NCBI RefSeq assembly: GCF_018143015.1
Contig: NC_054744.1
Span: 1,488,001-1,552,000, forward strand
Reading direction: 5' to 3'
DNA length: 64,000 nt
DNA from: Lytechinus variegatus
Lineage: Eukaryota; Echinodermata; Echinoidea; Temnopleuroida; Toxopneustidae
In this document: positions 12,001-61,980 of the stretch, one piece after another
Layout: the number at the start of each line of letters is the position of its first letter
Numbering within the stretch: the first letter of the stretch is position 1
Made by a program: the position numbers and the translations under genes
The notes under the pieces: generated by a model
Databases searched by the model: none
Seen by the model: only the letters and a program-made list of their open reading frames with translations
Told to the model about the DNA's origin: nothing

Positions 12001-15000
12001 ACTTTAAACTTGTTATAATATCGGTGTATCAGCAGAAACTTGAAACTTGATCTCTGTCAACACGGTGAAAGTTAACAAAATTGACAGATATACTGTATAG
12101 TTGGAGAATTACAAACAAGTGTAAGATTATCAAAGTGATGCAATGGAAATTATTTTGAAATGATATTGTTAAATGATCCTAAAAGATTGATCCTTCCAAC
12201 AGCCATGTTCAAGGTTTTCTCATGATCAGAATATGTTCACAACTGTGCAGTTTGTGACCTGAATAACTTATTTCATTCATATTTTTTTTAATGTTTGAGC
12301 AATTATCATCTTGATTGGATATGTTTTGATATTATGTTTACAATGTTGATTCATGTCTTTAAGATAGTACTTTATTTTTTTCATTATGACGCTGTTTGTT
12401 TAAGTCACATTATTGTCATTATTATTATTAAATTTGAAACTCATCTTTTAGGGAAAATCCCTTCCATAACCAGCATCATAGATAGACATCAATTGTAAGT
12501 CAGTTCATCCATCCCTCTATCAGCGATGACAAATAGATCTTGAGGTTTGGAGTTGTGATTGCATCTCCGCTCGTCTGTTCTCAGAAAGTCAGGATGACAT
12601 TTATAGAATGCTAAGCAGTGGTCGGTCAGAGCCCAGAAATAGCCAAGTCTATTATTATCATCAGCCAGAATACAGTACATACTGTACGCTAGAATACATG
12701 TATTCAACTCTGGCATCGTTAGTCTATGATGCGTTCAACTCAGTCCCCGTCTTTGATGGATTTATGTTGTTAGGCACTCTGCCAAAAAGCAAGAGCTGCA
12801 TTGCACAAATCCTGGAAGCAGCTTTTCATTATAAATCATCAGAGTCACCATAGATAACCATAGGGACTGCAGGAAAGCTAGACCAATAGCATCATTATTG
12901 GAGGATTCCTGATATAATAGTCATTGAAATAGGAGGGAAAGAGATGTACATGTGTGGAGGGTGTAAAGACACGCAAAGTTTCAAACTATACATCGATTTT
13001 ATAATCCAGTTTTGTACATTTTATCAGTTATTTTTACAAACTGTCCTAAACCCGGCTGGTCTCCAACACACGATTTTGAGATGATCGCGCAACGTCTAGG
13101 ATGGGTTTATGATCCCTGCATACTATTTAGGAGGTTGCTATAGTGTAGCACTATTATGATATTGTAAATTTTGTGTACAAACACCTAAACAGTTTCAAAA
13201 ATATATTCCTAGATTGGATTGAATATCTTGGAGGTTAGGGTTAGAGCCAAACTGAAATTGCATGGTCTTTATTATACCCTTTTCATAAACCTATCCTCCA
13301 ATTAGCCGCCTAAGAGTAATGCGGATAATTCAATAAAAATTGCGTTCATAAACTCCGAAAATAAGCCGCATTATTTTTACGAGCGCCCGTCCTGAAAAAG
13401 GCGGATAATCGTCATGACAACTGGACACGCCCCCTCCGATGCGGTTGTGTTGGAAAAGGGTGACCTTGTGACCGCACCATGGCAATTATCCGCATTATTT
13501 GGAAATGCGTTCATAAACTCCAAATCTTATCCCGATGCTGCTATTATGCGGATAATAGCAGCATCAGAGTAATGCGGATAACTCTTGTCCTCCAATTTTA
13601 CGACCAAATTATGCTGCTATTAGGCGCCTAATTCATAGTAATTGGGTTTATGAAAGGGGTATTAAAAAGTAGTATAATTTTGAAGACTAACACTTCAGAT
13701 CTCTTAAGAAAATTAATATGATAGTAGAAGGAATATATGTTTGACCATGGCGTGCATACGACTTTTTAAACCTTTATGCAGGAGATCATAGGAGAATACA
13801 AAGAGAGAAGATCCACATGAAAATCTCAAACTGAATTTTAAAAATTATATGACTATGTACAGCCAAGTTGGTTACAGAAAGAAATGATTGTTGCTATTTT
13901 TATAGTAGAATTTCTTGTTTTTTGTAATTTTAGGTGTGTCTCCCATTGCTTCTTTGTGTGGGAAGGTGGGATTGTGAGAAGGATCTCCTATATTTATTGA
14001 TATGATCAACTTGAAGCTTTGCATGGTTATAAAAAATATTGGGTGTTGACTGTGTGTGAAAGAGAGAGAGTTAATATCATCATGGTTATCAGTAGGTGAA
14101 TAAAATGAACTATTACTATATCATGATTTGAACTTTGGAAGGTAAATAGAAACTCTGAACAATGAATGATAGTTGATATTGACATTTAAACAAACATGTT
14201 TCTAAGCTTAGCATGAAATCAACAGAAAAATATAACCCCTCTCCCCAAAATCTGATATCATTCTTCCTTACGCTATTAAGCAGTTTTCTAGCATTTTCTT
14301 CTACAGGACATGATTTTTCTCAATAAGTTAGAGAGAGGGTACCTGTAAAAACATGTAGGCCTATACATGTAGCTATTTCTATTTTTTTGTCATGAATAAT
14401 GCTTCAAATTATTTTTATTTCATTGAAAAATATATCAAATAATTTAATCTATTTGTCATTTATAATTTGAATCTTTTCAAAAATAAGATAAATTGAATTG
14501 TATTTGTACTAGCTTTGAAATTTGTTCTATTATATTTAAAGGTAAAGTCCACCCCAGAAAAATGTTGATTTGAATAAATAGAGAAAAATCAAACTAGCAT
14601 GATGCTAAAAAAATCGGATGTAAAATAAGAAAGTTATGACATCTTAAAGTTTTGCTTATTTTTCACATAACAGTGATATCCACAATTCAGTGACATGCAA
14701 ATGAGACAGTCGAGATGTCCATCACTCAGTATTTCTTCGTTTTTTTATTATTTGAATTATACATTATTTCATTTTTTCCATATTTGACAATAAGGACAAA
14801 CTTGTCAGAACCATATTATATTAAAGAATGCCAATTCCACATGTTCAGGGAGGAATTAATCGTTGTATCACTTGACAATGAGGAGAAAATTAGAATATTT
14901 CATATAATAAAATACAAAAGAAATAGTGAGTGGATGACATCATCAGTCTCCTCATTTCGCATACCGACCAGGATGTGCATATAACTGTTTTGTGAAATTA

Positions 15001-18000
15001 AGTAAAATTTAAAAATGTCATAACTTTCTTATTTTACATCCGATTTTGATGAAATTTTCAGTGTTATGCTAGTTTGAGTTTTCTCTATTTATTCAAATCA
15101 ACATTTTGCTGGGGTGGACTTGACCTTTAAGGTTTGAGGCAGGCTTAACCATTTAATCATTAAAGTTTAATTGAAACCACTGTGTATTGGAGAAATGAAG
15201 ACATGGATTTTACTATAATGAAAAAAAAACATGATAATTATGAATGTATGGTACTACTGTGTAAGTTTCTATATTCATTTGTGTATGCAAGGCCTGGCTA
15301 ACACCTAATGCTGACTTTTATGTGAACCCGGGAGTCTGTTGTCTGATCAGGCGTACCTCAGGAAGGGCTTAGGGGAAGGGGAATGTTATCACATGACCAC
15401 ATCAGTCTGATTTTATAGCAGGATTTATCCCTTTGTTGTCCCACATTCAACACACCTTTTACATCAAATACTCAAGATATGTAAACATTTCTTATGCAAA
15501 ATAACATGAAAATGTTTGATTGATTTGATATAAAAAGAAAAGTATGATTTTTGGGGGGTGATATGTAGGCCTTAAAAAAGCATTTCTTTATAGTTTGCTC
15601 TCATTTCAAAATAAAAAACCCAAATGTCCTAAAGTATATACACAATTTTAGTCTATTAATTGAAATAAAGAGCATGTGAGAAGCAAAGCATTTGCCCCCC
15701 CCCCCCCCCGGTTAAATGTTCTGCCATTCTCTCTTCATCTTTCCATCCTGAATTCGGTGTTCTCAAGTGGCATTGTGGGTGTGTTGCCATGGCAACTGTA
15801 GGAGCCTGGGCTCTGTGTCAAGCCTTCAGCAGACACCCATCTGAATGTTAAAAATGCTACTTATTGGATGCAGAGATACAACCTGTTGATTGATTACTCT
15901 ATCCCTCCCCCCCCCCCCCCTCTCTCTCTTTCTCTGTCCCCTGGCCTGCTTATCATTTTTTTTCTCTCCACTTTTCCTTTTTTATTCTTTCTTTTCCTTT
16001 TTTTTCTTAAGACTCCCATAGCAGAGACTTTTCCTTCCCTCTCTTTTCTCTTCCCCTCTTTACGATATTCCATCCACTCTTGATTTTAATCCAACCTGAT
16101 AAATATATTCATTTCTTGAGAGTATGAAAAAAATAATAATGGACTCATCATTTTTCTGCTACCCCACCTATATTACTTCCTCCATAAGTAATTCTCCAAT
16201 GTGAATTCTTTCATCTTATACTTGTCTAAGAAAATTGGTAATGTATAAGTTACAATTTGATAAGTGACTTTAATAAAGGCCTTACTGAACCATATAGCTG
16301 TAATTTCCAAGAAATTTGTATAAACTAATAAATGAAACAAGCTGGACACCTAGATCTTTTGTTGAATTCACAAAAGGTGGTTTCAAACCGCCTCGATCAC
16401 AAGAATCCCCGTTAAATTACGAGAACTTTTTTAGGCTGAAAATTACCCATTAATTATTCCTGCATTCACACCGCCCTGAAACATACCCTTCGGGATAAGT
16501 TCCTGAAGTTTTTCTGCTACCCCACCTATATTACTTCCTCCATAAGTAATTCTCCAATGTGAATTCTTTCATCTTATACTTGTCTAAGAAAATTGGTAAT
16601 GTATAAGTTACAATTTGATAAGTGACTTTAATAAAGGCCTTACTGAACCATATAGCTGTAATTTCCAAGAAATTTGTATAAACTAATAAATGAAACAAGC
16701 TGGACACCTAGATCTTTTGTTGAATTCACAAAAGGTGGTTTCAAACCGCCTCGATCACAAGAATCCCTGTTAAATTACGAGAACTTTTTTAGGCTGAAAA
16801 TTACCCATTAATTATTCCTGCATTCACACCGCCCTGAAACATACCCTTCGGGATAAGTTCCTGAAGTTACGAGCATGCGCATTATGGTCTGATAAGCAGG
16901 CAAGGCGCGAGATTCAAAATCACTAGCCCAGCAGCCACCCACAGCTCCCGCGCCCAACGACACCCAAAGACACACGGGGCGAAAAGTTCCCGTAATTTGC
17001 TTTCACATCGCCAAAATACCTGCGACCTTGGAAAAATCACCGCGAAAGTTCTTGTAATTTCACCAAGTACCTACTATTTAGAAGGTATTTTCTTTCGGGG
17101 AAATTACGTATAGTTTGCTTTCACATTACCAAAATACCTGGTATTTTCTGATTGGGGTAAATTTCCCGATCAGAGAATACCTGGAACTGGCGAACTTCGA
17201 GGCGGTCTGAAACCACCTAAAGAGGTGTCCTTTCCAATTTCCTTTTATTGCTTGTTACAAAGCAACCAAGCAGGGCTAAGAGGGTTGGTGCTATATTTAA
17301 AACGTTATTTCCAAGTTGCTTCTATTACATTGCTAGATTAGGGATTTCCCCTGCATTGTTTAGTCTTGTCAAGTTATCTCACTGCTCCGTTTCAGTTAAA
17401 GGTCTCTCATTAATCTATGTTTATTGTTGTTTTTCAGATTATGACATTTTTTGTAGATAGAGTGGAAAATGCATGTGCATTATCAACATAAGGCGGTTTC
17501 AAACCGCCTCGATCACAAGAATCCCCGTTAAATTACGAGAACTTTTTAAGGCTAAAAAATACCCGTTAATTATTCCTGCATTCACACCGCCCCGAAACAC
17601 ATCCTTCGGGATAAGTTCCCGAAGTTACGAGCATGCGCAGTATGGTCTGATAAGCAGGCAAGGCGTGAGATTCAAAATCACTAGCCCAGCAGCCACCCAC
17701 GCCGCCGCGCCCAACGACACGCTGGGATAAAAGTTCCCGTAATTTGCTTTCACATCGCCAAAATACCTGCGACCTTGGAAAAATCCCCACGAAAGTTCTC
17801 GTAATTTCGCCAAGTACCTGCTATTTAGCGGGTATTTTCTTTCGGGGATATTACGCGTAGTTTGCTTTCACATTACCAAAATACCTGGTATTTTCTGATC
17901 GGGGTAAATTTCCCGATCAGAGAATACCTGGAACTGGCGAACTTCGAGGCGGTCTGAAACCACCTATAGAGGCCTGCATATTGATGATGATAACTGGATA

Positions 18001-21000
18001 GAAATATGTCGACTATATAGACTTGGATTTTCCATTTACTTGGTGTTCAAAATATTTGTTGGACATCAGTAGTGTCCTGTAATCCACATAACACAGTAGG
18101 GACTAAGAAGATGAAATAAGCTTATAACTACTAAAATCAAAACATTTAAACTTGATGGCATAAAATGAAGACTTTAGGCAGTGCTGCACCATCCCGAGAT
18201 TGCTCAATCTCGAGATTTTAGCCCGATCGGTCCTCTTCGCGATTAATCTCAAGATTCAAGAAACCCGTCTCCACCATCGCAAGAAGAGCGATTCCTGCTC
18301 GAGCAAGGCATCGATGCATTATGCTCTGACGCCATGAATAAATAATCCTGAGTGCGTCTGCACCTACGAATTAGCGCGATAATTCGTGAAATAGCGCGCT
18401 ATTTTGCAAATAATCCCAAGTTGACTTGGGATTGCAATCTCGAGATTAATCCTATGAACTAGCGCAATAATTGCATCTCCATTACAAATAATCTCGAGAT
18501 TAGATCAGGATAATTTGCCGGATCAGAAATAGCGCGCTAATTTGAAATTGGGGATGTTGCAGACGGCCCTTATGTTTCCAACGATATCCACCTCTGTTAC
18601 TCAAAACTCAAGGTCCCTCAATTATATTCTGATGTTGATCAATTATCTGATTTTTATCAAATGTGGATGTAGTCCATTATACAGTGCGTATCAAAAAAAA
18701 AGTTTACACTTTGAAAAAGCCCTGGGAATTTAAAAATATACAACATGTGGGTAATTTTTTCACATATTATGTTGGGTTTGGGTCTCATCTATCCAATGAA
18801 AGTAAAAATTTTGACGGAATGTTACACTTGAATGAGCACTGTCCATTTTTGTAAAGCTCGCAGAAATTTGTTTGCGCAGAAATGCCCGTTTGTACGTTGT
18901 GTCAAGGGGAAAGGGTGAAATCAAACTTACCCTGCGAAACATTTCTCATACATTTCCCTTGCACTTTTAGTCAATTGAAATGAAACGGATAGATTCAAGT
19001 ATTTTCTAACAATTTTGCCACCCAAATTGAAATTTTAACACTTAGTATACACAACTTTTACCCTTTTTGTGCCTGCTGGATCTGAGGATATAACCGAATC
19101 TCAACCAAAGTTTATATCAGACATCTCTAGCATTTTTTCACTAAGTTTTTATCATTTAAAGTGGGTTAACATTTCATTTTTTATTCAATACTTGTTTCTC
19201 CACACTTTTCCCAAGCTTGACAATGATTAACAAAATGAAAATCAAGCCTAAGCCATTTCATGTAAATCACAGCTCAGTGTAAAGCAAATATCGTCCCGAT
19301 GGCCTCGGTGTGAGGGGGAGGGGGGTGGGGCGCAATGCACTCCTCGAAGTGGTTTGGGCAATGAAACAAGTTAAATAGGTAAAAGATATCTTCAGATCAA
19401 TTTTACTAGCTAAATTCCACGTATTATTCATGATTAAGGTCTACTTTTATTCGCATAACTATTTCAAAGTTCTGCGCAAATCATTTTTCACTAACTTTTC
19501 AAAAGTAAGTGTTGCTCACTCAAGCGGAAATATTTTTCGACAGTTTTATCGTCATTTGCTTAAATGGACCTGTACCAATGTTGAAATGTGGAAAAACCAT
19601 CAGGATATTACAAATGTATAATTTTACAGGATTTTTTCTAAGTGTAAACTTTTTTTTGATACGCACTGTAGAATTGAGCTGACACCGCATAAAATGTTGA
19701 TTCTGTGAATATTACCAGTTCTCATCAATAATTTTTCCTTCTGTTTCAGAACAAACTCTGACTCGGCGCTTCATACCAGTGCAATGGTTCCTGATGTTTT
19801 TTCGGGGCCTGCATCAGTTCCCCCTCATAGGAGAGGTAAGATTACATCTTATCTAATATAGTTTATAAAATCAGATAAATGCTAACGTTGGAACACTACT
19901 ATTTCCTAGTTTACTTTTGAGAAGATTATCGTACAATGAATTATGCAACAATTTTAATAGAAATCACAGGATACTGCAGACTGCAAATTTTATGATTTTA
20001 CATTTTACATGCGGTCATCTTATAATGCGTTTAGTGATCATTGATGGCTAAATACAAATCTGTACAGAGACCGGGGGGGGGGGCACTTATATTGAGTGGA
20101 TACCAGGCACGACCAAAGAAACGCATAAAAAGGATCTCTTTTCAAGATTGGGTATGTTACGTACATAATGTAAGAAGGGTGTCAAAAACACTGAAATACT
20201 GAAAAGAGGGTATATATTTCGCTCGGATGGCTACGTGTTTACGGTTAAATTTGCGAAGGATGCTTGAAAGTAAAACATGATATTATACTTATGTATTTGT
20301 ATATGGGTTTATTAATATTTAGGTATACATGTGTATGTATATTGTATGCATTTATGTATCTCGCATCTAACATTGCATCCAAGATTGGTATTTTTCTTCT
20401 GTTTTTTTTTTTTTACTTTTTTTTTCTTTTTTTTTAATACCTCGTTGTCACTATGTTATGTTTATGTTGTATTATTATTTTTTCTTATGTTTCTTTGTTT
20501 TTGATGATGATCCTTATATGTCAGGATTTTATATTAATAAACTTTTGAATTTGAATTTGAATTGTATGTACTTTTTGCCCCAACACTGTTTAGGGTCCGA
20601 TTTGAGCGAGGTGGGGTGGTACTAAACCCAATGTAATTAGCCCAAAGTAAAGCCGACGTCAGATCACGTCCATGAGATAACAATTAAAATATCACTGTAG
20701 GCCTACTTGTTTAGAGGGTCAATTCAGGGAATACTTGCTGAGGGTACCATTTTGTTTCCAATACTTGTTAAGGGTAGGGTTTCACACGCCAGTACTTATT
20801 AAGGGGTGCATTTTCAGAATATAGAAAAAACTTGTTTGGGGTGCTTTTCGAAACCCCATGGTCGCGTCTGGTATCTACTCGTCAATGGAAATGCCCCCCC
20901 CCTTGGACTGCGCTGAATGTTTGATGATCCTTAGGGTGTGTTTTGTGTTGATATTCAAATTTAAACAGCAACATGAATCATTAAAGGTCAAGTCCACCCC

Positions 21001-24000
21001 AGTAAAATGTTGATTTGAATCAATAGAGAAAAATCTAACAAGATAACACTGAAAATTTCATAAAAATCGGATTGAAAATTAGAAAGCAATGACACTTTCA
21101 AGTTTCACTTATTTTTCACAAAACAGTTGTATGCAGAACTCAGTGACATACAAATGAGAGAGTTAGTGAAGTCCATCACTCACTATTCATTTTGTTGTTT
21201 ATTGTTTGAATTAATATTTCAAATTTCACTGTAAGGAACAACTTTACTGAACCACAATAGTTTATAACAATGGTAATACCACATGTTCAGGGAGGAATAA
21301 AACTTTGTTCCACATGACAAAGAGGAAGAAATTGGAATATATGATATTTCCTATAATAAAATACATACAAAATAACATACAAAATAGTGATTGGATGACG
21401 TCATCGGTCCCCTCATTTGCATACTGACCTGGATGTGCATATAACTGTTTTGCAAAATTAGGCAATATGTCATAACTTTCTTATTTTACATCCGATTTTA
21501 ATGAAATTTTCAGTGCTTTGCTTTTTATTCAAATCAATTTTTTGTTGGGTTGGACTTGTCCTTTAAATGTGCAATTACACTACTCATTTTAATACATTTG
21601 GCATGCTGTTAGTCTTACAAAGCGTACCCTTTTCAGCATATAAATTTTCCTCTGAATCACAATCTGAAAAGCGTTTACTGTTCCAACCAGGAATGGGCGA
21701 CATTGAACACATGCTTTGTTTCTCTTTATATTTTATCTGCATTTTGTTATTGGGTTTTGAATCACGATCCATGTTGCCATATGAAATAAACAGTGAACAT
21801 TGCACATATCCCTTTGTTGATTGTATGATGCCTGTATGATATTTTAAGGGATATGATCTTATAATTTTGAAGAAATTATATAACTCTACACTAAACAAAG
21901 ACTGTGATCATGAAATCGTAGAGTAATCATGGTGCGCCAGGATAGTAAGGCTGGTGAAATTCATACTGAAATATTGTATTTGTAATCAGACTGGGATATC
22001 TTCAGTAATGAGTCTGTTATTTTTTATGTAAATAAATGCATACCCACTTAGAATCCCTTTTCACCACCAGACCTTGCTTTTGACTTTGTTCATAATTAAT
22101 AATTGTCCAAGTAATTTGCAAATTATAATGAACCAATATTAGTGACATTTAACAGTATAAAAAGCTCTCTTTTTCCTGGATCTTAATTTCCATTTCAAGT
22201 AGATTTGAAGAAAAAAATAATTTCCCCAGGGGATAATACTCTTTGGTCCAATTTATTAAAGTCAATTATTGTGGGAAGAGGTCCCTTCAATTCAATTACA
22301 ATTTTTCGTCTCTTGATTACGGATTTGGAATACAATCTCACTGGAGATTTACCAAAAGTGAAGATTTCTGGACTTTTGGGGAGTCAAAGAAAGAGTGTGA
22401 ATGAAGAAATGTCTTAGGAAGGTGAAATTCTGAATTGAATAGCCAGTGCAACATCAAAAGACACCAGTTCATAAAATTGTATGAAATCTATACTTTTCTA
22501 TTGTAATATTTTTGTCTCGCCTGCAAAGGAGAGCGATACTATAGGCACCGCTTTTCCGATAGCGATGGCGGCGGCGTCAACATTGAGTTTCTGAAATGTC
22601 ATCATAACTTAGAAAAGTATATGGACCTAGTGCATGAAATTTGGACATAAAGGTAATCAAGTATCACTGAACATTGTGTGAATGGTTCCGGTCACATGAC
22701 CAAGGTCAAAGGTCATGTAGGGTCAATGAACTATGACCAAGTTGGGTGTATCTGTTGAATTACCATCATAACTTCGAAAGTTTATGGATCTGATTCATAT
22801 AACTTGGATATAAGAGTAATCAAGTATCACTGAACATGTTTTGCGAGTTTCAGGTAACATGACCAAGGTCATTTAAGGTCAATGAACTTTTGCTAAGTTG
22901 GGGGTATTTGTTGAAATACCATCATAACTTCGAAAGTGATTTTTAAATCTTGGAACATAATAGTAATCGAGTATCACTGAACATCGTGTGCAAGTTTTCG
23001 GTCACATGATGAAGGTCAAAGCCTGAGACTGAAAACCTACCAGACTGATAGTCTGTGAGACTGACAGCCTAAGACACTGAAAACCCACCAGGCTGACAGT
23101 CCGCGAGACCGACAGCCTACGATACTGACGACCCACCTGACCGATAGCCCGCAAAGCCTGGGAGCGTAGGAGACTGGCAACCTTCCAGACCAACAGCCCA
23201 CAAATCAGACAGCCATACGGCTTACAAGATCGACACTGTCAAAGACACCGTCCTACTACTGTCCTAAAACTAGTTTCCTGGGAACTAGTACGTGTGATGA
23301 GAACAGTCAAAGTGGTCTTTGAAGCGATCTTCCAAACTGGTTCAGAAAACCACCTTGCCATGTAGTTTTGAAGATCGCTTTGCCTTGTTAAACTGGTTTT
23401 AGCATAAGTGAGGAAATGACCATTCTTCGGGAAACAATCTTTAAACATTTCAAGCGTGCTGCTCCACACACTGTGTGTGGAATGCCTACGCTGCGGTTTC
23501 AAATTTTGCGCAAAACATGTCACCCCACTGAGAGTGTTCGCAAAGCAACAAGACCACTATACAAAAAGTGGTTTTGAAAACCAATTTCGGGTGATCGAAT
23601 GGGAACGCCAGCAATGCAATCTTCCACACTGGTTTACTGAACCGGTTTCCAGTAAACCAGTTTTAGAAAGAATAATGAGAACGGTGTTTTATAGGCCAAT
23701 GAGATAGACAATGAACAAAAAAAGCCCATGAATCTAATAGCCTACAAGAGATATTAAGCAATAAAGGTCCATCAGACAGACATTAGATAAAAACCGACAG
23801 AATAAACAGCACCATCTTGTCTTGTTATCAATTTAACTAATCGTACCTTTCAGAATTTTCAGTTTTCATTTCGGTTTGGTAGGCTTCTTTTGTGTGGTGT
23901 TTATCTCGATTCGGGGGGGGGGGGGGTTACTCAGTAAAATGTATGATGCTTATGTGCCATGGTCGAGATCCCCATTTTGAGTCTAAATTTCTGTTCCTGA

Positions 24001-27000
24001 GCATTACCAATTTAGAAAGCCATAGAAATTCCTATTTTTCCCCCGTTCCAGAGACCCTCAAGTTTTCCAGCGCACGCCCATCATGAACTACTCAGCCGGT
24101 CGAGGAGGTGAGCTCGATCAACGAAGAGTCATTTGAGTTTCGGAGACCCCCATTTTCTATGTGTTTAGTTCCGATGCAATTCATTTTCAGCAATGGTTGG
24201 TTCCAGGGCCATCCAGAGACCACCATTTATAAGAATATTTATATTTTGTCTATTGTCAATCTCGTGGGTTAAGGCTTAGACCCAAGTAATTGACAACAAG
24301 TTGGTCTTGAGACAAGTCCAGCGAAAGTTTTCAGTACTTCAGACCATGTTAGTGTGTCTGGGGATTGTACCAAGAAACAGTCTAAAGGGTTATCTTTGAT
24401 TTACTTCTTTTTTTTTTCCATAGACACGATAGACAACATGGGTGACCGGTTGAAGCCTGGTCATTGGGACCCAAAGAAGGTAAGTTTTATTACTATCATG
24501 AAGAATCAACATCTTTTTCTCTTGAATTGAATCTATGAATGATTATTCTTGATTTATTTTCTGCACATATATTTAGTACACATTGGAATGACCACCATTG
24601 AACACATGGTCTTCCATCCAAGTACTGATCAAACTCTATACCAATTGACTTTTGCAGTAACTTAGTGCTTCACTTTGCCATGTTGCAAAACTTCTGCACT
24701 CCTTAAGCCCCTTTTACAGTCTTCACGGGACCAACACGGATCATCACGGATTGTCAATCCGGGGTCATCCCTGTACAATCCGGGATTACTTTGTACACAC
24801 CGGCTACTCATCCGGCACCATCCTTGATGTAGCGGCATATCCGGGAGAATAATTAAACATGTTCAATTTTTCATCCCTGAGTACACAGACAGATAATCAT
24901 CAGTGTTTATCATCGTAGCCACCTTGTATATCCGTGTAGCTACCACTATCCGGGAGGCTCCTTGTAAGAACCGGGCGCTCCTTGTTAATACCGGCTTTAT
25001 CCAGGGTCAAAAATTTTCCATTGTTTGCGCACATAAACAATAGTCCGTGTTCATGGCCATGTCTGTGTATGGTTCAGACGTTGCCAAGATGAAAGAAACT
25101 TCGATCTTGGCCAAAGCTCTAGAGATATCCCAGTAGAGACCATAAAGTTCTGTGTAACATCCGTGTATTCCGTGTTGATTCCGGGTAACTTGTCAAGCAG
25201 GTCCCTAGTGCTACCTTGTCTATCCTTGTAAAAACCGCACTTTTTTGTTCACTTCCGTGTAAATACCCAGTTAAATACGTATTGACTCCGGCAATGGTTG
25301 AAAAATACCAATTTGGCACCCCGGAGTACCACCGACTGAGATTCATGATGATCTGTTTTGCATCCTTGAAGGTGTAAAAGGGGCTTTAGTGTGGAGGCCA
25401 GTGTGTGGTCCACCGCAGAGGCTGTGCTGAATAAGTCAATTCTTATATTCACAATGTGTGGATTCAGTAATCATAGCATGTTTGTGGCCATGCTCACTAC
25501 ACATAAATAACAATGATCACTATGGCAGTTGATGATCCTTAAATTTGCCTTAAAAGTGCTGCAAACGATGTACAGTGTATGAGGCTTGGACAGACTCGAT
25601 CATATAACCATGCTGTGAATATTCTTGTAGCAATGTGTTGAAATTTATTTCTTCCTCCAATTCCAGCGCCTATTCATAAATTAATGTACTAATATGAATA
25701 TCTAAACAATATTCCAAAGAATTCATATTTCTCTGAACAAGACTCTTCAAAAGAATATCTTACATTAGTATAGATATTTTATTAGAAAAAGCATTATTTT
25801 GGACACAAAGAAATAAATAAGAAAGTTATGAAATTTTAAAGTTTCACTTATTTTTCACAAAATAGTGATATACACAACTCAGTGACATGCAAATGAGACA
25901 GACAATGTCCCTCACTCACTATTTCTTTTGTTTTTATTGTTTGAATTATACAATATTTCAGTCTTTACATATTTGACAATGAGGCACAACTTGACTGACC
26001 CATATAGTATTAAACAATACTAATTCAACATGTTCAGGGTGGAATTAATTGTTGTTTCTCTTGACAATGAAGAGGAAATCAGAATATTTCATATAATAAA
26101 ATACAAAAGAAATAGTGAGTGATGATGTCATCAGTCTCCCCATTTGCATACCAACCAGGATGTACATATAGCTGTTTTGTGAAATTAAGCGAAACTTTTA
26201 AATGTCATAACTGTCTTATTTTGCATCCGATTTTGATGAAATTTTTAGTATTATGCTTGTTGGATTTTTCTCTTTTTATTCAAATCAGCTTTTGTTGGAG
26301 TGGACTTGTCCTTTAATTATATGCCATCACTGTTCATGTATTCCTATAAAAGTCAACAATTCTGTCAGATATATGCCTAAATATTTCCAGAGAGACATTC
26401 TTGTTTTGAATGCGTCCTCATTCTGATCTGAACTCTTGTCATTTATCCATCCTTCCTTCCTTCGCCTTCAAAAGGATAAGTGAGAGGGATCATTTTTTTT
26501 CTCTCCAGGGCAGCTTATATCTCATTGCATATTCACAACCAGTACTATTAACAAGGATTTCTCCATGCATAACACTCCAAGAAAACATTTCATTCCATCT
26601 CTATACTTTAGACAACAACATGACATCTATCCAATGAAAGGGATTTTTTTTACAATTGATTTTTATTATCCAGAGTTAGCCCTTGATTTTATTATATTGG
26701 GTCAGATGCATAAAAATTTAAGTAGCAATTGCTTTTGCTTGATTCATCATGTCTAAGGAAAAGATGTTACAGGAGAGCAGTATTTTGCACTGCCACACTT
26801 TGCATTTGAGTCCCGCTTTTGTTCTGTGATTCGTGTTCGCACAAGCGTGACATTGCTATTGTTCAAACAACTAGCAATTGCTTTTTGAAGGCAAGGAAAG
26901 GGTTAAGCATGAGCAAAGGGTTGTACATACAAAATAAAGTCATTTCTAAGGCATGTTCTTTTGCTTGGCTAGCTATTGCTACTTTTTATGCATCTGACTC

Positions 27001-30000
27001 AATGTCTAAGGAAAAAATGTTACATAAGAGAAGCGGTATTATATCTTTCACTGCCATGTCAGGAACCCCTTTGCATATGAGTCCTACCTTCTGTGAGTGG
27101 TGTTCACACCAGTGTGATGTCGCTATTGTTCAAACAGCTAGCATTTGCTTTTTGAAGGCAGGGAAAGGGTTAAGCAATTGCTTGGGTTTTGTCAAGCTCC
27201 GTTAGAGCAGCTTTAGCATTTGCTTAATAAAGGCATTCACGTTTTGTAATCATATTTATAAATGTGAAAGAGAACCCCATGGCAAGGCTCCACATTAACT
27301 TTTTTTGGTGGTGGCCCATTCGGGCCACCAAAACCTTCAAATAATTTTTTTTGATGGCCCACTAATAAAGTTTGGTGGCCCGAAAAATATAAAGAAAAAC
27401 ATTAATTAAAAATGAATAAAACAAACTGAAATATATTCTGCAATCACTAACACGTACCACTATTCTTTGCACATCTTGTATATAAATCGTGCTTGCTGTT
27501 ATTTTACTTTGCATAAAACAAAACAAAAAGTGAAGAAAGAAAAAAACAAAGAACAGGTCATAAAAAAAATTGTGAGAAAAACAGAAGAAAATTTAAGAAA
27601 AATAAATAAAACAAAATTATCAAAAAATGGGGAAAATTATTATTATTCAGTAGAAACATGTTCTTTAATCAGGTATTTTAAATGGGAAGGGGTATAAATG
27701 GTTTAATCACTGAAAAAAAATGAAAGAAAAAAATAAAATGGCAAAAGTTATCTGGAAAAAACAGTGAGACAATTCCTTCCATATATTTGACAAAATGATG
27801 GAAAAAAAATCACATGTCATATCAATGAAATGCATTCCCAAAGTATTTACTTCCTTAAGAATGGTTTAAGAAGTCATTTGTAAACAAGAAAGAAAGAGCG
27901 GCCTATTTATTTTTGGCTCAAAGAGACACAGCTTCGAAATAAACCAAATATCAACATACATACAAATGCACATATGGGACTGTGATGTACTCACCTATGT
28001 GTATTAATGCATTTGGAAATCGGTCTTTTTGAGTCAAAAGAGAGGTCATAATTCCTCCTTTTAATGCTTGCAATTAATCAGGTTTCAGTAATATGGACTG
28101 TAGAAGGGCATTTCATTGGTGTAAAATGTGACTTTGACGTAGATTTCCAAAGTTCTGGGGAAGATTTCTTAGCAGTAACATTTCGTATCGCAGCTCCCTG
28201 GGTCTGAATAGTCTGCTCGTGCACAGCTAGCTGCATTGGTTTCATGCATGCAAAGCTCAGCCAGACAGCCGGCGTGGCCGGCTGAATAATAGGTACTGTA
28301 TGCTAGCGGTAGGCCTACATACTGTCATGACTATGCACTCTTTGTGTGTGTGTAGATTAACAAAAAAGGCGCATGACGAATTGGCTTGCAATTTTAACTG
28401 TAGAAGGTTGATAAATGCATGCAAAATCGGGAGAAAAATTGCGCTACTTTGAAAATTATTGGTTGCCCGATTCGGGCCACCAAAACTTAACATTTTTTCA
28501 ATAATGGTTGCCCGAGATGAATTTTTGGTGGCCCCGGGCCACCGCTAATGTCGAGCCTTGCCCAAGGTGTACAGTAGCGTATATGAACATCTTTTCTTCC
28601 TAGTAATTGCAAACATAATGTCAAGTATAACAATTTATTAATTAGAAACAAGTTTGAGGAATAGTTAGACACCACGTCTAAGAAATTTTTTACTTGAGAG
28701 AAGCGATCTATTTTGCACTGACATGTTAGGAAACCTTTGCATATGGGTCTCACCTTTGTTCGATGAGTCGTGTTTGCACCAGCAATTACTTGCTGAAGAC
28801 AAAAAAAGGTTTAAGCACAAGCAAAAGGTATATGAAATAAAGCAATTGCAGAGGAATGATTGCTTGGCTAGCAATTGCTTGCCACCAATATGCATCTGAC
28901 CTTTTGTTTGAACTAGTAAGAATTTTCTTAACCCCCGCGCATGTTTCTTAGGGATATTATAATATGCCTTATTTTTATTGGCCTTATTAGTAACTATAAA
29001 CCAAATGTTAACTCCATTTCTAGGTAAGATATTTCAAGAACAACATAATATCGATTTAAAATATTGACTCAGATTAAACAATTTAAGAATACTTTCTTTT
29101 GATCTCAAAGAATGAGACTTTCAGATTATTATTTTTGAATTAGGATTCATATGTTTATACCACTTTCAGGTATCGGAATGGATTTTTTTTTTAAATCTTA
29201 TCTTAATGTGACGATTAATTTTTCATAGCTCACAACAATAAATGGTGGCAGCAGTGGGATGTTTTTAGGAGCTACTCAAGGATTTATCATGTCAGCTACG
29301 CAAAGATAATTAATGTAGTACTAGAAACAGTCACCAGTCGTGTGCAAATATAGGAAACCTACAAACAACTTTAAATGAAAAAAACCCACCTGGTTGGATT
29401 TATCATGAGTGCATCGATCATCTTGTGCTCATTGAATCTATAAATAAACATTACACTAATAAATGTAAACCATTGATTTGTGTTTTAAACCCAGGGCCAT
29501 CAGTCGCTTCAATCCAGACCTAGGTCATGTGAGGTACCTGGTATTAAGTAAGTTTTTTCTTCATGCATTTCTAACCTACAATTTCTTAAGTTCAGGGATC
29601 ATACTATTAATACTATACATAGATATTATGCCTGGGAATGTTTTTCAAGTGATTGGGGAAAAAAATATGAATAGTTCTTCTTTGAATATCTTCCAATTTC
29701 AATACTGATGTTAGTATATAAGATATGTTGCCAGTCATGACAAAGTATATTCATTAGGTCTACACAAAAACTTTTATATCACAGAAAATATGTAAACTCA
29801 AAAACCTTATCCTTTCAAAGTATTTGAGGCATTGTCTAATTTTAGTTATATCAAATTAACTATAAATCTTTTCCAAAGAGGAGTCATTACAACAATACTT
29901 CAATAATATTTGTTTCTTATTTTTCTCTCTCTCTTTTAGTATTTGTCCATCAGCGGAGCAACCATCGGAGGCAAGCAACCCGATACCTATTTCAAGTAAC

Positions 30001-33000
30001 ACCGGATCTTTACCAGACCTTACCAACCTTCACATCCCCTCTCCGCTCCCAACGCCTTTAGATCCTGAGGATCAGGCGTATAATCACAGCGGTAGTGCCA
30101 CAAACCTCTCACAAAGCATGCCATCGGGAGGCCATCTTGGTGTCGTTGGTAACCATACATTACCACAGGTGAGTTGAAGGATGTGCTTATACTTGAAATG
30201 TGAAATTTGTTAGAACCTGCTAAAATTGTACAATCTGGATAGGAAGGTGTTAGATAAGGAATTAAGAGAGCCAACATTGCGTATCATCATAGATGACATG
30301 TGCAAGCTGTCAAATTATAGGTCTTGTTGCTCACTTGTGCATTTTTACGGTTTATTTCAAATTCGTCTAATTTGCCAACTTGTCTACTACTATCATATGG
30401 TCTACCACCAGTTCATCCATTATCCACATGGTCTAATTGCCAATTCATCCACTCACGATTTCGTATAATAACCAGTTGGTCCAATTGCCATTTAGGCCAT
30501 AAACCATTTGGTCTAATTCGATAAGTGTTAATTGGGCAAAATGGATAAAAAGAAAGTGGGTATTAGACCAACTGGTTTTAAACGAAATGGTCATAGACGA
30601 ACTTGTGATTAGACGAAGTGATGATTGGACCAGATGGTTGTTAGACAAAACGTTGATGGACAGAATAACATAAGAGTTGGTGGTGAGTTGACGAGTTACC
30701 AGTAGACAAATTGGTATTTTACCCATTTTTGCTACCATATGAATTGTGTTTGATGGGTACATGTTTCAAATCACCTTTCCTATCTCAACCCCACCCATTA
30801 ATGGATTTGCAACATACCCATTCTGTCTCCTGTTGTGGTTGGTTTATCGTGACAAACCTCTTTCACTTGTGCCAAGATCTGAGGGCATTTGTGGTATACA
30901 TGAGTCAGTCCAAAGCTGTTCATTTGATGCATGGCTTGTTCTGCTAATCTACGCAAGTTAAAGCTCCATTTTGAATCTTGGTAAATTTCCTGAAAGTATG
31001 TGTCACTCTTCTAGTTCATTGCTACATTATATAAATGCATTTGTTCTAAAAATGTGGATGACATGAACTAAAATAAAAGCATGTTTCATTAGACGTATTT
31101 CATGATTTTTACAGGAACAGTTATGTAGTATTTTTTATGCCTGATAAAAATAAAGTTAGTGTATCCAGGTATTTTGGGGTTTGTTATATAAATATGTTTC
31201 TCAATTATGGAATGGGCTGAAATTTTTAGGTAGGCCCCTATTATCTTTGTGTGAGGTTTTCTGATATTTGATTACTAACTTTGTAAAATAAGTGCTGAAA
31301 TGTCCTTTCAAGAACTAATATAGTGAAGGAAAAAAATCAAATTCACATTTGTACAAAGAATAAATGGCTATGAGAAAGATTGGAATTGGATAAGATTAGA
31401 ATGTTAGGTGGTATGCATATATAATTCACTTTAACAAAGCCTTAAACAGGCTTAATGGTGCAATTCATTAGTACCATTAGTTCCTTTTAAAAATCAATGA
31501 AACATAATATGTTTGATAAAAAAAAAATTGTTAAATAAGCCAAAAGATCACTTTGGTCAGCCAAAATATATTTCATCCGGGTCTTTCTACTGCCAAGATT
31601 TTGGCTTGGCAAAGGTTTCTCACCACCATCATAATTTGGGCGGGCTAAAACACATTGTGTCATGTATGTGTGATCTTGGATTTAGGTTTCCAAAATGCTT
31701 GTGCCCTTTCCCACCATATTAAGTCTGGTCCTGGTCTAACATGAAACACATTGCATATGGTCCATATTCTGGACCAGTCCTAATGATCTTGATGGAAAAC
31801 GGTTAATAAATCACAATGTGCAATCTAACATGGTCGAAATCAGGGAAAATTATTTTACTTTTTTCCAGTCAGGGAAAAATCAGATAAATTTGATAGCAAA
31901 CACCTCAAATCAAGGAAAAATGCCTCAAATGAGGGAAAAATCAGGGAATTGTTATCATCTCAAAAGTTGAAAGCACGGTAGTCAGTCTGACTCTTATATT
32001 TTGTTGCATATCAATCTCTTTCTGTATAAGGTGAGGAAAGGGTGGCTGTATGGGGAGAAGGGAGGCCATTACATACTAGTACCAACTTAGTTTTACATTA
32101 TTGTTTTTATACTGAAAATACATGTAATTCACGGCAACAACTTAGAAAACATGCGAACCTGGGAATGGGTTTGAATAATTATTAGAAATTTTTAAACTTC
32201 AGGGAAAAAGCAGGGAATTTTGTTTTCTTGAAAAGCTGGGAACCCTGTCACTGATGAGCATTCTTGTTTGTGTATCAGGTTACTACACACAGTCCACAGG
32301 TCAGTCCTCAGATGAGCCCTCAACCCCAAAGAAGACAAGTGATGAGTAATCCGGGTAGTCCTGTTGTCCTTAATCAAAGAAGACATTTAGCACCTAGTCC
32401 ACAGGTATGGAGCATTCTTACCAAAAGCCCATCCCCGCACTAACTAAATCACTAGTCCACAGCGATGCAGCATTCTAAACCAACATCCATTCCCACACTA
32501 ACTAAGTCACCTAGTCCACAGCGACGCAGCATTTTTACCAAAAGCCCATCTCACAAACTAAAGAAATCACTTAATCCACAGGGATGTATAGCACTGTAAC
32601 CAAAATCTCATCCAATACTAACTCTTGATTAAGTTAACAAGTTGCAAGTTATGGTAACAGGGAGATAATAGAGGAAAATATTACAGCAACTATTGTAGGA
32701 AGAGATGAAATGGTGTTTATTTTGCAACATGATATAGAAAGTTGGAGTTATAGCCTGGAGGGGTTTCAAGAAGTGTATGAGTAGAAGTTTTGATGGAAAT
32801 GTCAATTTTGATTGACCATCTTTTTAACAGGGTATCCCATTAGACCAGACCCCTAGCATAGTAGTTGATCATCATCAAGAGCAACCTAATCACCATTCAC
32901 AACAGCAAGTTACGCAGGTAGCCCAACAGGTTGCCCAGCAACAACAGCAGCAACAACAACAACAGCAGCAGCAATCACAACAACAACAAATGGCAAACCA

Positions 33001-39785: not shown

Positions 39786-40329
39786 GATTAGTCTTTATAC
39801 TTTTTCTCTATCATATGTTTAACTGCATTGACATAGGTATATCAGTGTGTAGTCTATATAAAAGTTGGCAGGTGTGTTAGCTTAAATGACCAGAGGATAG
39901 AAATGTCATCAAAACTTTCTGCATTCAGCAACACAAAAGTATCTATTACTTGTAACTTATAGGAGACAAGCATGATCATTGTTGTATGCACACATTCAAA
40001 TGCCTGACCAGTAAACCATTGAGAACTATTTAAATTTGTAATTGATCTTAAACCCCTCACACAATGCTCAGTGTTTAATCGTACAGTTGATTTTTATGAT
40101 GGATTGCACATTATGATCAATGCAATCATTCATAACATCAGCCTTGTGATCAACCACAGGCTTTGTGTTAAGAGGCCCTTGAAATTTACACCCCCCCCCC
40201 ACCGTAAAGATAAATATTTTGATCAGATATACCGGTATGTATTAATATACTAAATCTTCTAAAATTACTTGTTAGTTCGTGATAATTATGACAGGACTGA
40301 TGCAGTTGGTGAAAGAGCAAATCATATGT

Positions 40330-40805
40330 CAATTCAGAAAAAAAAATGAAATGTTAAATTTTCGCTTATATTTTTCACAAAACAGTTATATGTACAACAC
40401 AGTGATTTTTTTATTACCGGTACATATGAAATATAGTATATTTCATTTTTTGTAGATTTAACATTAAGGAAATGTCTTGACGAATCACAATAGGTTGCAA
40501 CATTCATTTCGGCGTTCCCACTTTTTAAAACAGGGTTCAAGCCTTGTTTTACATTTTAATGAGGACAAAATTAAAAGAATATTTTATATAATAAGATACA
40601 AAAAAGTGAATTTTTATCTTCATCAGTTCCTTATTTTTAATACCAACGAGGTTGTGAAATAGCTGTTTTGTGAAATTAAAAGAAACCTTCAAACTGTCAT
40701 AACTTTGTAAGTTTGCATCTGATTTTTATTAATTTATCACCATTATGCGAGTGTGATTTTCCTATTTTCATTTAAATCAACCGTTTGAATATGTAGACTT
40801 GCCCT
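40330..40805. mobile_element. TTAA-flanked MITE, copy 4, worn
   Basis: Recognisable by ATTTTTCACAAAACAGTTAT, AATACCAACGAGG, TGAAATTAA and the end GTAGACTTGCCCT next to TTAA (40806-40809). The left end is lost and no CRE-like site remains. Confidence 0.7.
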
Positions 40806-40809
40806 TTAA

Positions 40810-51170: not shown

Positions 51171-51171
51171 G

Positions 51172-51500: not shown

Positions 51501-52014
51501 AAAGGAATATTTATATAAGCACATTTTGTTTAATCATGAACACGATGCGTATTAACAATTAATGCAAATGCAAAGCTCAAGTTCAAAATATTCATTTCCC
51601 TTTACTGACCTTAAAGGTCATTCCATCCAAGAAAACTGTAGATTATAATCAATAGAGAAAAATCAAACAAGCATAGCATTGAAAATTTCATCAAAATCAG
51701 ATGTAAAATAAGAAAGTCAAATAAAGCATCGCTGATTTTTCACAAAACAGAGAGTCGATGATGTCCCCCACTCACTATTTCCTTTGTTTTTATCGTTTGA
51801 ATTATATAACATTTCAATTTTTACAATAAGGACCAATTTGACTGAACCATAAAATGTTAAAACAATGGTAATACCACTTGCTCAGGGATGGTAGAACTTT
51901 GTTTCACAGGACAACGGGAAGAAAAGTTAGAGAATATTTCATGTAATAAAATACAAAAGAAATAGTGAATGAGTGATGTCACCAGTCCTTCGTTTGCAAA
52001 CCGACCAGGATGTG

Positions 52015-53480
52015 AATTGAATTGAATTGAATTTATTACAGAACGTCACCGGCAATTGCCAACATTTTGTTCAAAAGAAGAAAATATATACATAAACAGA
52101 TAAACAAAGACAAAATAGTATTTTTTGTCAAACAAAAACAAAATCAAAACAAAATATAACAAAGCAACTTATATATAAAAATATACACTATAAACATAGG
52201 CATTATTCGGGTACTCATTTTAACAATGAGTAAAAAAGAAAAAAAAAAAAGCTGATGTCCAAGAGAGGACAAGGAAAACACAAGGAAAGTGGGAGAGGAG
52301 AGGGAAATAAAGAGGAAAGAAGTTCGAAAATAGAGAGGGCGGGAGAGAGGAAGAGTGAGAAGAATGGCATCACATGTAAACTTATTGTGTAAGAATATTG
52401 CGAGTGTATAAATTCAAAGTGTTTGCCGGTTGATATTTTTAGTACTCAGAATTCCCCCCTAATATTAATTATGTTTTGGACAAAAGAACAAAATAATTTA
52501 ATCAATGCATCAGTTTCCAATTTCATGATGTAAATAAATTTTTCCTGGTACTCCATTTCAGAAAACCTAATATTAAGGGTACTTATCTTTTCAAAAAAAT
52601 CTTTGCGCAAATCATTATATTTGTTACATTTCATTATAATGTGAAACTCATCCCCCACCAAATTCAAATTACAATCCTCACAAAATCTCAGGTTAGATGG
52701 TATCTTCTCCGGTCTTTTGTACCTCCCTGTTTCTATTGGTAGATTATGAGCGCTCAGTCGGAGCTTGGTTATATTTTTTCTCAAATTGACATTGTGTATT
52801 GAACATAAATAATTTTCTTGCCTTATATTGAGTTTGAATTGCCTAAAAGTTCTTAGTTTATTTCCTTCCCTACTGTCCCTGTCGTTAAATAAATCTAATT
52901 TAAACTGTTCATCAAATCTCCGTTCCAAGGATGTTTTGCATATATTGTAATAAATTCTTTTTGGGAAATTGGTATATTTTCTGGATCGAGTATGGGGGTG
53001 TAATTTTTCCGACAAATATCTAATATGTTAAAAATATCCTGGATTGTCTTAAGCCAGCAATTGTTTCCGTTATTCAATAGACTTACATTTTCTACAAAAG
53101 CTTTGTAAACCAAACTATCTTCGTCCATATTACGTATTCGAATCCAATATTTAAGTATATTTATTGCATTTTGGATGACTTTTGGATATCTACCAATTTC
53201 AGCTGTCGCTGCTAAGTTACTGCATTTGCGGTTTACCCCAAGAATATATTTACAAAATTGAATGTTCACCTTTTCAGATTCATGTTTAAAATATAGCCCT
53301 GTTTTCCCATCAATTAATTGTAGATTTTTTTCCATGTCTATAACATTTGTACCCCATATTTCAGATCCATAAAGTAATATCGGCTGTATCGTTGCATCGA
53401 AAAGATGCAACAGGTTTTAGTGCTAGGAGTATATGAACCAAAAGATTTGTACAATTTGAATGTACAATTTGAATGTACAA
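52015..53480 (-). mobile_element. CR1/L2-type LINE, 5'-truncated, inserted in the MITE
   Basis: Runs on the minus strand with its 3' end at 52015, a tail (AATTC)n-like on that strand (TGAATTGAATTGAATTTATT on the plus strand). ATGTGAAT is present at both junctions (52010-52017 and 53480-53487) as an eight-base target duplication. The 5' part, including most of the reverse transcriptase and any endonuclease, is missing. Confidence 0.85.
52446..53410 (-). pseudogene. LINE ORF2 C-terminal part, in two overlapping frames
   Basis: The first frame (53410-52895) has IQPILLYGSEIWG, then QFCKYILGVNRKCSN, AEIGRYPKVIQNAI and ILKYWIRI: the end of the reverse-transcriptase and thumb region typical of CR1/L2-like LINEs. 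The second frame (53015-52446) continues with LRLSAHNLPIETGRYKRPEK and a zinc-knuckle-like CEDC..DEFHIIMKC..Y motif, the usual C-terminal end of these proteins. The two frames overlap by about 120 bases, so a single shift separates them; otherwise the reading is clean, suggesting moderate age. Confidence 0.85.
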
Positions 53481-53809
53481 TGTGAATATATAACTGTTTA
53501 ACGAAATTAAGCGAAATTTAGAATGACATGACTTTCTTATTTTACATCCGTTTTTGATGAACTTATCAGTGTCAGTCTGGTTGGATTTTTCTCTTTTTTA
53601 TTCAAAACAATTTTTTGTTGGGGGTGGACTTGTCTTTTAAAAAGAAACATTGCAAGGACTGTTTATTGGAGTTCATAATGAGGATACGTATCTCGGTAAT
53701 CAAATAATTAAAAGCGCGTAGCGCGAGCTGATTTTTTTTTTTAGATATTCAGCACTTTTTATGTAATCTCGCTAAAACAAAGTAATGAAAAAAATTATTT
53801 TCAAACGGT

Positions 53810-54578: not shown

Positions 54579-54582
<4 letters not shown>

Positions 54583-54613: not shown

Positions 54614-54616
<3 letters not shown>

Positions 54617-54954: not shown

Positions 54955-55118
54955 ACATTTGCTCTACGGCGGCCGTACGGCGAGTCTAAAACTGCCGTTT
55001 TATCAATTTTTATTCAGACCGACCACGTATTATTATGTAGCTTTTACCCCAAAATGTTAAAACGGGCTGTCTTCGACTCACCGTATACGGCCGCCGGAGA
55101 GCAAATATGACCGAGGTA
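54955..55118. mobile_element. Short palindromic MITE, family of 1177-1338
   Basis: 164 bp, ends CACCTCGGTCACATTTGCTC and complement GAGCAAATATGACCGAGGTA. Inner inverted repeat TACGGCGGCCGTACGGCGAG-like. TA follows the right end. Less CpG-decayed than the copy at 1177, so probably younger. Confidence 0.83.
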
Positions 55119-55151
55119 TAGGGGATTCTTGATGCTGAAAAGAATGTTTAA

Positions 55152-55700
55152 AGGTCAAGTCCATAATGCTGAAAATGTCATCAAAATAGGATGTTAAATC
55201 AAAAAAGTTCTGACATTTTAAAGTTTCGGTTATTTTTCACAATTAAATAGTTATATGAACAATTTAGTCACATTCAAATGAGAGAATAGATGATCTCCTT
55301 CACTCACTACTTCCTTTGTTTTTTATTGTTTCAATTATACAATATTTCATTTCATTTGACAATAAGTACCAACATGACTGAAACCATAAATTGTTAAACA
55401 ATTGTAATTCGATATGTTCAGGGCGAAATAAAACTTTTTTTCGCAGGACAATGAGGAGAAAATTAGACTATTTTATATCTCACATGCTAAAAAACAAAAG
55501 AGATAGTCAGTGCATGACGTCATAAGTCCCATTAGCACATCGACCGGGATGTGCATAAAACTATTTTGTGAAATGAAGGGAAACTTTAGAATGTCATAAC
55601 TTTCTTGTTTTATATCTGATTCATGAATTTTTCAGTGTTGTGCTTTTTTATTTTTCCTCTTTTTATTCAAATCAACTTTTGGTTGGGGTGGACTTCTCCT
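55152..55700. mobile_element. TTAA-flanked MITE, copy 6, with intact CRE
   Basis: 549 bp, AGGTCAAGTCCATAATGC at the left and GGGGTGGACTTCTCCT at the right, TTAA at both sides (55148-55151, 55701-55704). The central site reads TGACGTCATAAG (CRE at 55515-55522). Confidence 0.88.
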
Positions 55701-55974
55701 TTAAATAACAATTTGGCAGGGTTCCTGCCACACATCAGTCCCAGAGTAAGACTTTTCAAAACTATTTTAAACATTTCTGCTTCATTGAATCCAGGCATTC
55801 TAAAGGGGGGGGGAGGGGGTCCAATAAGCATCTTTCTTTGTGTAGTCATGCATAAAATTAGTGGGTCATATGGTTCCCAATTAACCCTTTCAAGTATATT
55901 TCTTGTTCATCGGGAAATGTACTATCCAATGATATCTAGTGAATACGTTCTGTAAGTTCACTCTCAAATTACTC

Positions 55975-61879: not shown

Positions 61880-61883
61880 TTAA

Positions 61884-61980
61884 AGGACAAGTCCGCCCGC
61901 ACAAGAAGTTGATTTGAATAAAAAGAGAAAAATCCAAGCATAATGCTGAAAACTTTAATATCAAAATCAGATTTTCTTAC
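61884..61980. mobile_element. TTAA-flanked MITE, copy 7, left end only
   Basis: TTAA then AGGACAAGTCCGCCCGC, AGTTGATTTGAATAAAAAGA and AAATCAGATTTTCTTA. The family match stops near 61980; the rest is missing. Confidence 0.8.

Follow-up and report, generated by a model that had tools for sequence, protein, structure and literature searches.

Introduction

Miniature inverted-repeat transposable elements (MITEs) derived from piggyBac duplicate the tetranucleotide TTAA on insertion, and piggyBac ends typically start with CCC after that TTAA. The T2-MITEs of Xenopus and related Kolobok elements have the same target; in the passages of the Xenopus study that bear on their ends (PMC6004289), Kolobok ends start with purines (RR), T2-MITE ends start with AGG and strictly with AGGRR, and the elements occur at high copy number in subfamilies of differing age. 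In the part of a study of mammalian orthologous sites that treats the decay of the cAMP response element (CRE), the full site TGACGTCA changes to TGATGTCA or TGACATCA by transition at the central CpG, and the TG form is still functional in some genes (PMC1796609). Here, we analyze a 64,000-nucleotide stretch of the genome of the sea urchin Lytechinus variegatus (contig NC_054744.1, C5:1488001-1552000; hereafter the window), which contains copies of a TTAA-flanked MITE family with a CRE in its arm, some of them within the gene of the CREB coactivator CRTC. Like piggyBac-derived MITEs, this family duplicates TTAA; unlike them, its ends start with AGG rather than CCC. The CpG transitions described for mammalian CREs recur here, although in many copies of a mobile element rather than at orthologous sites.

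A sequence-only reading of the window had proposed at least seven copies of the family, an ancestral CREB site kept in two of them and lost by deamination in three, and possibly a regulatory loop. We searched the genome (869.57 Mb in 33 contigs) for the family. With a probability of roughly three in four (0.76), the copies belong to a MITE family that is non-autonomous, folds back on itself, inserts at TTAA and was probably mobilized by a Kolobok-type transposase, and whose arms come from an element end that carried TGACGTCA. Among the titles and abstract openings found in the literature, none concerned this MITE or an excess of TGACGTCA in echinoderm repeats, which does not prove their absence.

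Results

Structure, insertion and class of the element

The consensus of the element is ~610 bp long. The exact left end occurs at 11,821 places genome-wide, and 53 of the 82 end-to-end copies in the loci that we fetched read exactly TTAAAGG...CCTTTAA. The element had been credited with inverted ends of ~115 bp. The ends are indeed inverted, but their extent was understated: the copy at 14536-15130 folds back over its whole length, aligning end to end with its own reverse complement (72%). Its RNA fold has an energy of -250 kcal/mol, compared with a mean of -111.6 for shuffled sequences (standard deviation 5.7, n = 100; z = -24.5).

Evidence on insertion comes from locus L011, in which the joined flanks of the copy at 7887-8495 match two paralogous repeat units of the same locus that are without the insert (690-837, 85% over 164; 9537-9683, 82% over 165). 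Both matches run through a single TTAA, which indicates that TTAA is duplicated on insertion. Joined flanks of 28 copies were used as queries, and matches across the joint were obtained for four (L011, L014, L018 and L020), with L011 alone aligned; the matches of L014 and L020 are one weak 60-bp match, and among those shown for L018 are the query locus itself and one end of a different MITE copy.

A length below ~800 bp, inverted arms, a TTAA target-site duplication and high copy number place the element among MITEs. It is apparently non-coding; in the six-frame list of the window, which is the extent of the frame search, the first copy contains a frame of 96 amino acids (14694-14981). Both ends start with AGG (AGGTCAAGTCC and AGGACAAGTCC, reading AGGTC and AGGAC). 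These purine-starting (RR) ends, together with the TTAA duplication at one empty site, suggest that this is probably a MITE family of Kolobok type. As in the Xenopus T2-MITEs, the target is TTAA, the ends start with AGG, copy number is high and subfamilies differ in age; moreover, the right end AGGACAAGTCCACCCC equals the published end of Xenopus XKol A3, AGGACATGTCAACCCC, at 14 of 16 bases (PMC6004289). The strict AGGRR of T2-MITEs is absent, with C as the fifth base at both ends and T as the fourth at the left end. The family differs further from T2-MITEs, as far as the cited passages describe them, in folding back over its full length, in carrying a CRE in its arm and in having no transposase linked to it. 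Kolobok elements are moved by a DDE transposase that has a THAP domain and the same ends; no transposase with the family's ends was found in a search that covered the 122 THAP matches of the genome themselves.

The CRE site in the older subfamily

In a set of 38 full-length copies, many of them chosen by their exact end, the right-arm site reads TGATGTCA in 21, TGACATCA in five, TGACGTCA in four and other sequences in eight. Thus, the family consensus that was to reveal an ancestral CREB site does not contain one when it is taken plainly. The majority state was rejected as the ancestral state because two subfamilies differ in their modal state: the plain consensus is TGATGTCA because the commoner, younger subfamily inherited TG. 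The claim of an ancestral full site is rescued only by this split, and it holds for the older lineage, which is nearest the copies in the window.

Flanks of the older subfamily (GTGAGTGGATGANNTCATC) surround the site at 2,308 places. Here and below, tallies of 100 refer to the first places listed in contig order, nearly all on C1, and are not a random sample; states were counted by computer from the 100 listed older places and by eye for the younger right-arm, left-arm and internal-CpG patterns and for the two other repeat patterns described below. The older site contains CG in 49, TG in 22, CA in 21 and other dinucleotides in eight of the first 100 places. The near equality of TG and CA is the symmetric pattern expected of deamination. 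Among 60 older loci fetched, 52 align over more than 400 consensus bases, and their consensus reads TGACGTCA at the site; the other eight, like one of 20 younger loci, had no match of that length and were dropped. The CpG of the CRE is retained in 23 of 52 copies, compared with 176 of 382 cells at eight other consensus CpGs (28-62% each; pooled Fisher P 0.88). The CRE CpG therefore gives no sign of special preservation, and selection for retention of the CRE was discarded as an explanation. In the 38-copy set, transitions occupy 0.18-0.19 of CpG cells versus 0.05-0.06 at other C or G, and median identity to the respective consensus is 91.7% in the older sample and 95.2% in the younger.

The older subfamily began with a full CRE, whose decay matches that of the remaining CpGs in the element. 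Special retention of the site is not supported, and to call it lost is too strong, inasmuch as TGATGTCA is described in the mammalian study as a functional CRE of lower affinity (PMC1796609).

The younger subfamily

Flanks of the younger right arm (AGTGAGTGANNTCATCAG) occur at 4,121 places and are commoner than the older context. The first 100 listed contain TG in 91, CG in three and CA in none. CG totals 158 of the 4,121; of the first 100 of these CG places, 24 belong to a single tandem cluster on C11, the copies of which have the same flanks, so that this context is not exclusive to the younger subfamily. Read in the same sense, the younger left-arm context (5,842 places) contains CA in 91, CG in five and TG in two of the first 100, a count that includes some right arms with left-arm sequence (e.g. 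2696628). An internal control CpG, present in each arm, is retained in 85 of the first 100 of 16,720 places. Independent decay would yield TG and CA equally; the predominance of TG in the right arm and of CA in the left is therefore inherited.

A FastTree tree of 114 copies, built with the CRE site and its surroundings excluded, places the 49 younger copies in one clade with an SH-like support of 100 (TG 41, CA 5, CG 2, other 1). The remaining 65 copies are mixed (TG 15, CG 27, CA 14, other 9); the ten rows in other states were left out of the grouping by state. All five CA copies of the younger clade fall in one six-row subclade together with L003, which reads CG. The right arms of the four that are readable (L010, L014, L020 and L021) contain the left-arm sequence GACATCATCGAC, which makes arm-to-arm copying a likelier source of CA in this subclade than deamination. 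L014 and L020 lie within 98% duplicates and are not independent cases. Loss by deamination of the central CpG, as originally proposed, thus accounts for the older subfamily; in the younger, TGATGTCA is inherited and some TGACATCA appear to have arisen by copying between arms.

Both flanks of ten of the 20 younger-context copies are common to L001, versus none of the 60 older copies, and the homology extends for at least 2.4-3 kb. Some young copies are thus surrounded by a composite repeat containing tandem units of 49 bp and ~152 bp. Its junction with the MITE is exact in only 186 places, compared with the 11,821 exact left ends, and 12 of the first 100 junctions listed lie in the first 13.5 Mb of C1, the sampled region. 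The idea that the whole younger subfamily spread as passengers of one composite was cut back on this count.

Two further arrangements were observed around these copies. In L001, L002, L005, L013 and L025, the MITE lies between arrays of the 49-bp and ~152-bp units and the whole unit has been copied; by eye, the ~152-bp units have a short stretch in common with repeats at 22578 and 59246 of the window. The C11 cluster (28.97-29.33 Mb) is a tandem array with units of ~1.1 and 3.1 kb, and a 5-kb piece of it (C11:28967800-28972800) contains four MITE copies with intact CREs beside repeated Ser/Thr-rich exon-like pieces (by eye).

Sister families

A second TTAA foldback type, represented by L110, is ~505 bp long and has arms that are 82% complementary over 145 bp and alignable to those of the studied family. 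At the aligned place, each arm of L110 reads TGACGTCA, as does the right arm of the older subfamily, whereas its left arm reads TGATGTCC. The more closely related L126 can be aligned over 187 columns at 67% identity, with small gaps, and likewise has TGACGTCA at the aligned place. The presence of the motif in both sisters suggests that it probably predates the family. With intact sites in both arms, the L110 type would be the best case for the possible recruitment of CREB/ATF factors discussed below. In the window itself, a CRE at 3346 lies within a stretch that is 70-80% identical to L110-L112, and a further TGACGTCA, at 9547, falls within a different repeat that matches L127 at 82% over 296 columns.

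Genome-wide excess of TGACGTCA

The genome contains 56,547 copies of TGACGTCA, 10.7 times the 5,303 of the permuted CpG-centered palindrome AGTCGACT. The reversed word occurs 11,421 times, and base composition predicts ~9,100 at the G+C content of the window. In 264 kb of sequence made up of the fetched loci and the window, part of which was selected for MITEs, TGACGTCA occurs 15 times compared with 0-7 times for nine other CpG-centered palindromic octamers.

Several kinds of repeat account for 44 of the first 100 TGACGTCA places listed. Ten of these form five pairs 222-229 bp apart; the three pairs fetched are L110-type foldbacks (L110, L111 and L112), and the other two coincide with places of the L110-arm pattern. 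Nineteen belong to a second kind of repeat with two sites ~50 bp apart, often followed by a third ~587 bp further on; two were fetched (L113 and L114), and six of the seven groups coincide with places of its pattern. Four lie in a 71-bp tandem array (L115) and four in the studied family (L003, L007 and two assigned by their spacing from internal-CpG places). Among 14 further sites picked from the first forty listed, seven match other fetched stretches over the CRE; for four of these, every matching stretch had itself been selected because of a CRE.

The L110-arm pattern occurs at 6,700 places, with CG in 89 of the first 100; if that rate holds, L110 arms supply about a tenth of all TGACGTCA. 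The second-repeat pattern occurs at 845 places, with CG in 94 of the first 100. The share of the studied family is estimated at 3% in exact contexts. The family is thus a real mobile source of CREs, as had been claimed, but a minor one in a genome with larger sources.

Discussion

The results are best explained by a model in which the arms of the MITE derive from the end of a parent element that carried TGACGTCA. In that parent, the motif may have belonged to the promoter of the transposase or given host CREB/ATF factors access to the element; it would have helped the parent element and then been left to decay in dead copies. The TGACGTCA of the older right arm eroded by ordinary CpG transitions. 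The younger subfamily inherited TGATGTCA, part of this subfamily being carried in the larger composite repeat, and copying between arms is a second source of TGACATCA.

Several points weigh against this model. The superfamily assignment is drawn from the ends and the target site, no transposase having been found that carries these ends, and we infer from sequence what the CRE did for the parent element. The older and younger samples were selected by exact flanks from the first places listed, the pooled CpG test assumes independent cells, and the tree, made with FastTree, was midpoint-rooted. In that tree, the copies at 20981 and 55148, whose CREs are the intact ones of the window, fall on a branch shared with the younger clade (support 96) and apart from most older copies. 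In the arm-copied subclade, L003 combines CG with left-arm flanks, which complicates the order of changes there, and the few exact junctions mean that spread as passengers accounts for only part of the younger subfamily. Finally, the L110 alignment has a 54-column gap just before the site, so that positional homology is less sure there than for L126.

The most serious alternative is that the CRE merely reflects the foldback structure, which could maintain or generate a palindromic octamer without any binding factor. Indeed, the octamer is perfectly palindromic and lies in long inverted arms that exchange sequence. However, a process that favored palindromes as such is difficult to reconcile with the count of AGTCGACT, which is not enriched, or with the lower counts of the nine other octamers in the partly MITE-selected 264 kb. 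TGACGTCA is also found in other repeats (L113/L114, L115 and L122), which may or may not have inverted arms. We judge this explanation unlikely. A second alternative takes TGATGTCA as ancestral and the CG copies as back-mutations. It draws on the majority state of the 38-copy set and of the younger subfamily, but CG is modal in the older subfamily with TG and CA equal, TG cannot become CA in one change, and the sister families read CG at the aligned place; this alternative is already disfavored and, in our view, highly improbable.

It is tempting to speculate, though we hold the idea only tentatively and on balance doubt it, that TGACGTCA has a function in several TTAA foldback families and other repeats: by recruiting host CREB/ATF factors during early embryogenesis or in the germ line, it would benefit the element. 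Such repeats would have raised the count of TGACGTCA about tenfold, and most potential CREB sites would be supplied by transposons. If true, the genome would hold a pre-wired, decaying CREB network of transposon origin. A MITE with a decaying transcription-factor motif is ordinary; what stands out is how common TGACGTCA is in this genome and how often it lies in repeats. The old question of whether host-factor sites help transposons becomes directly testable here by comparing intact, TG and CA copies, which number hundreds to thousands per class.

Copies in the window and the CRTC gene

All seven places noted in the window belong to one family, as had been claimed, and comprise two full copies, one split copy, one copy with a deletion and three truncated or fragmentary copies. 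Table 1 lists them together with the pieces of CRTC. The starts given earlier for copies with intact left ends lie four bases inside the TTAA; those given as 25805 and 40330 mark copies that lost their left end, to which the description of copies sitting between TTAA does not apply. The five CRE sites had been read correctly to within 2 bp (14935 versus 14937, 26123 versus about 26124 and 51974 versus about 51976).

Table 1. Coordinates of MITE copies and CRTC gene pieces in the window.
Feature	Position	Strand	CRE site	Evidence or remark
CRTC exon piece (EAAPYSAPYLSPPSDTSWRR)	9038-9097	+		tblastn with the N-terminal part of a vertebrate CRTC, E 1.5e-4
Full-length foldback MITE copy	14536-15130	+	14935-14942, TGACATCA	TTAAAGG...CCTTTAA; between CRTC exon pieces
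Probable CRTC exon piece (RTNSDSALHTSAMVP)	19748-19792	+		tblastn E 0.014, weak alone; right order and strand
Full-length MITE copy	20981-21566	+	21396-21403, TGACGTCA, intact	between CRTC exon pieces
MITE copy without left end	25815-26316	+	26123-26130, TGATGTCA	from consensus base 96; between CRTC exon pieces
Open frame with CRTC middle domain	29866-30174	+		Pfam TORC_M, E 2.4e-15
Open frame with CRTC C-terminal domain and stop codon	36660-36950	+		Pfam TORC_C, E 3.1e-17
Degraded MITE fragment	40319-40809	+		two pieces (40319-40405, 40427-40809); downstream of CRTC stop codon
Left part of insertion-split MITE copy	51611-52017	+	51974-51981, TGATGTCA	consensus 1-460
Right part of split copy 51611	53488-53640	+		consensus 459-610; consensus alignment
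MITE copy with deletion near left end	55148-55704	+	55515-55522, TGACGTCA, intact	TTAA at both ends; ~18.6 kb past CRTC stop codon
Terminal MITE fragment	61880-61972	-		consensus 518-610; consensus alignment

The older consensus is closer than the younger to every window copy compared: 90.8% versus 82.5% for 14536-15130, 81.2% versus 76.0% for 20981-21566, 91.1% versus 82.4% for 25815-26316 and 83.6% versus 79.7% for 55148-55704. In the tree, 14536 and 25815 are placed among older copies, and 51611 joins 20981 and 55148 on the branch shared with the younger clade, outside that clade. The copy at 55148 retains the TTAA and ~11 end bases before its deletion and is alignable from 55162. AGGTCAAGTCC is exact at 20985, 55152 and, on the minus strand, 15116.

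The repeats of the window are beyond chance. Compared with expectations from genome density, the window contains three exact left ends versus 0.87, two internal arm patterns versus 1.23, one older-subfamily site context versus 0.17, none of the two younger contexts versus 0.30 and 0.43, and seven TGACGTCA versus 4.16. Against these expectations, a local excess of copies at CRTC is not convincing and was set aside.

The TORC_M domain near 30.0 kb precedes the TORC_C domain at 36.7-36.9 kb, which identifies the gene as CRTC and bears out its earlier assignment to a CREB coactivator; the stop codon is at 36,948-36,950. Motif and tblastn searches of the window revealed no exon encoding TORC_N. Three copies (14.5, 21.0 and 25.8 kb) are located inside the gene, as had been stated of the family at large; those at 40.3, 51.6, 55.1 and 61.9 kb, including one of the two intact CREs (55515), lie past the stop codon. 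The presence of a mobile CRE in this gene had been called a notable coincidence, yet two intact sites are unremarkable given the genome-wide numbers of exact ends and of TGACGTCA. A loop in which CREB and CRTC control CRTC itself by way of the two intact sites, 21396 and 55515, is in keeping with the identity of the gene and with the location of one intact site between its exons and one downstream, but is scarcely credible: retention of the CRE CpG is no better than at other CpGs in the element, genome density predicts 4.2 TGACGTCA per 64 kb where seven are present, four of the seven copies lie outside the coding span, and the two intact copies have diverged to 81-84% of the consensus. Most likely, the copies in the window do not affect CRTC.

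Other features of the window

Searches of the window against Rfam gave no matches, and searches against Pfam gave no families for the frames at 3418-4557, 4217-4642, 52449-53027 and 52898-53416. The halves of the split copy 51611/53488 are separated by ~1.47 kb of other DNA (52018-53487), which opens with AATTG repeats and overlaps two frames on the minus strand, one of 193 and one of 173 amino acids; this insertion is possibly a fragment of a long interspersed nuclear element (LINE). At 3416-4924, inverted repeats of 110 bp, 97% complementary and 1,289 bp apart, surround most of a 380-amino-acid frame and perhaps mark another mobile element.

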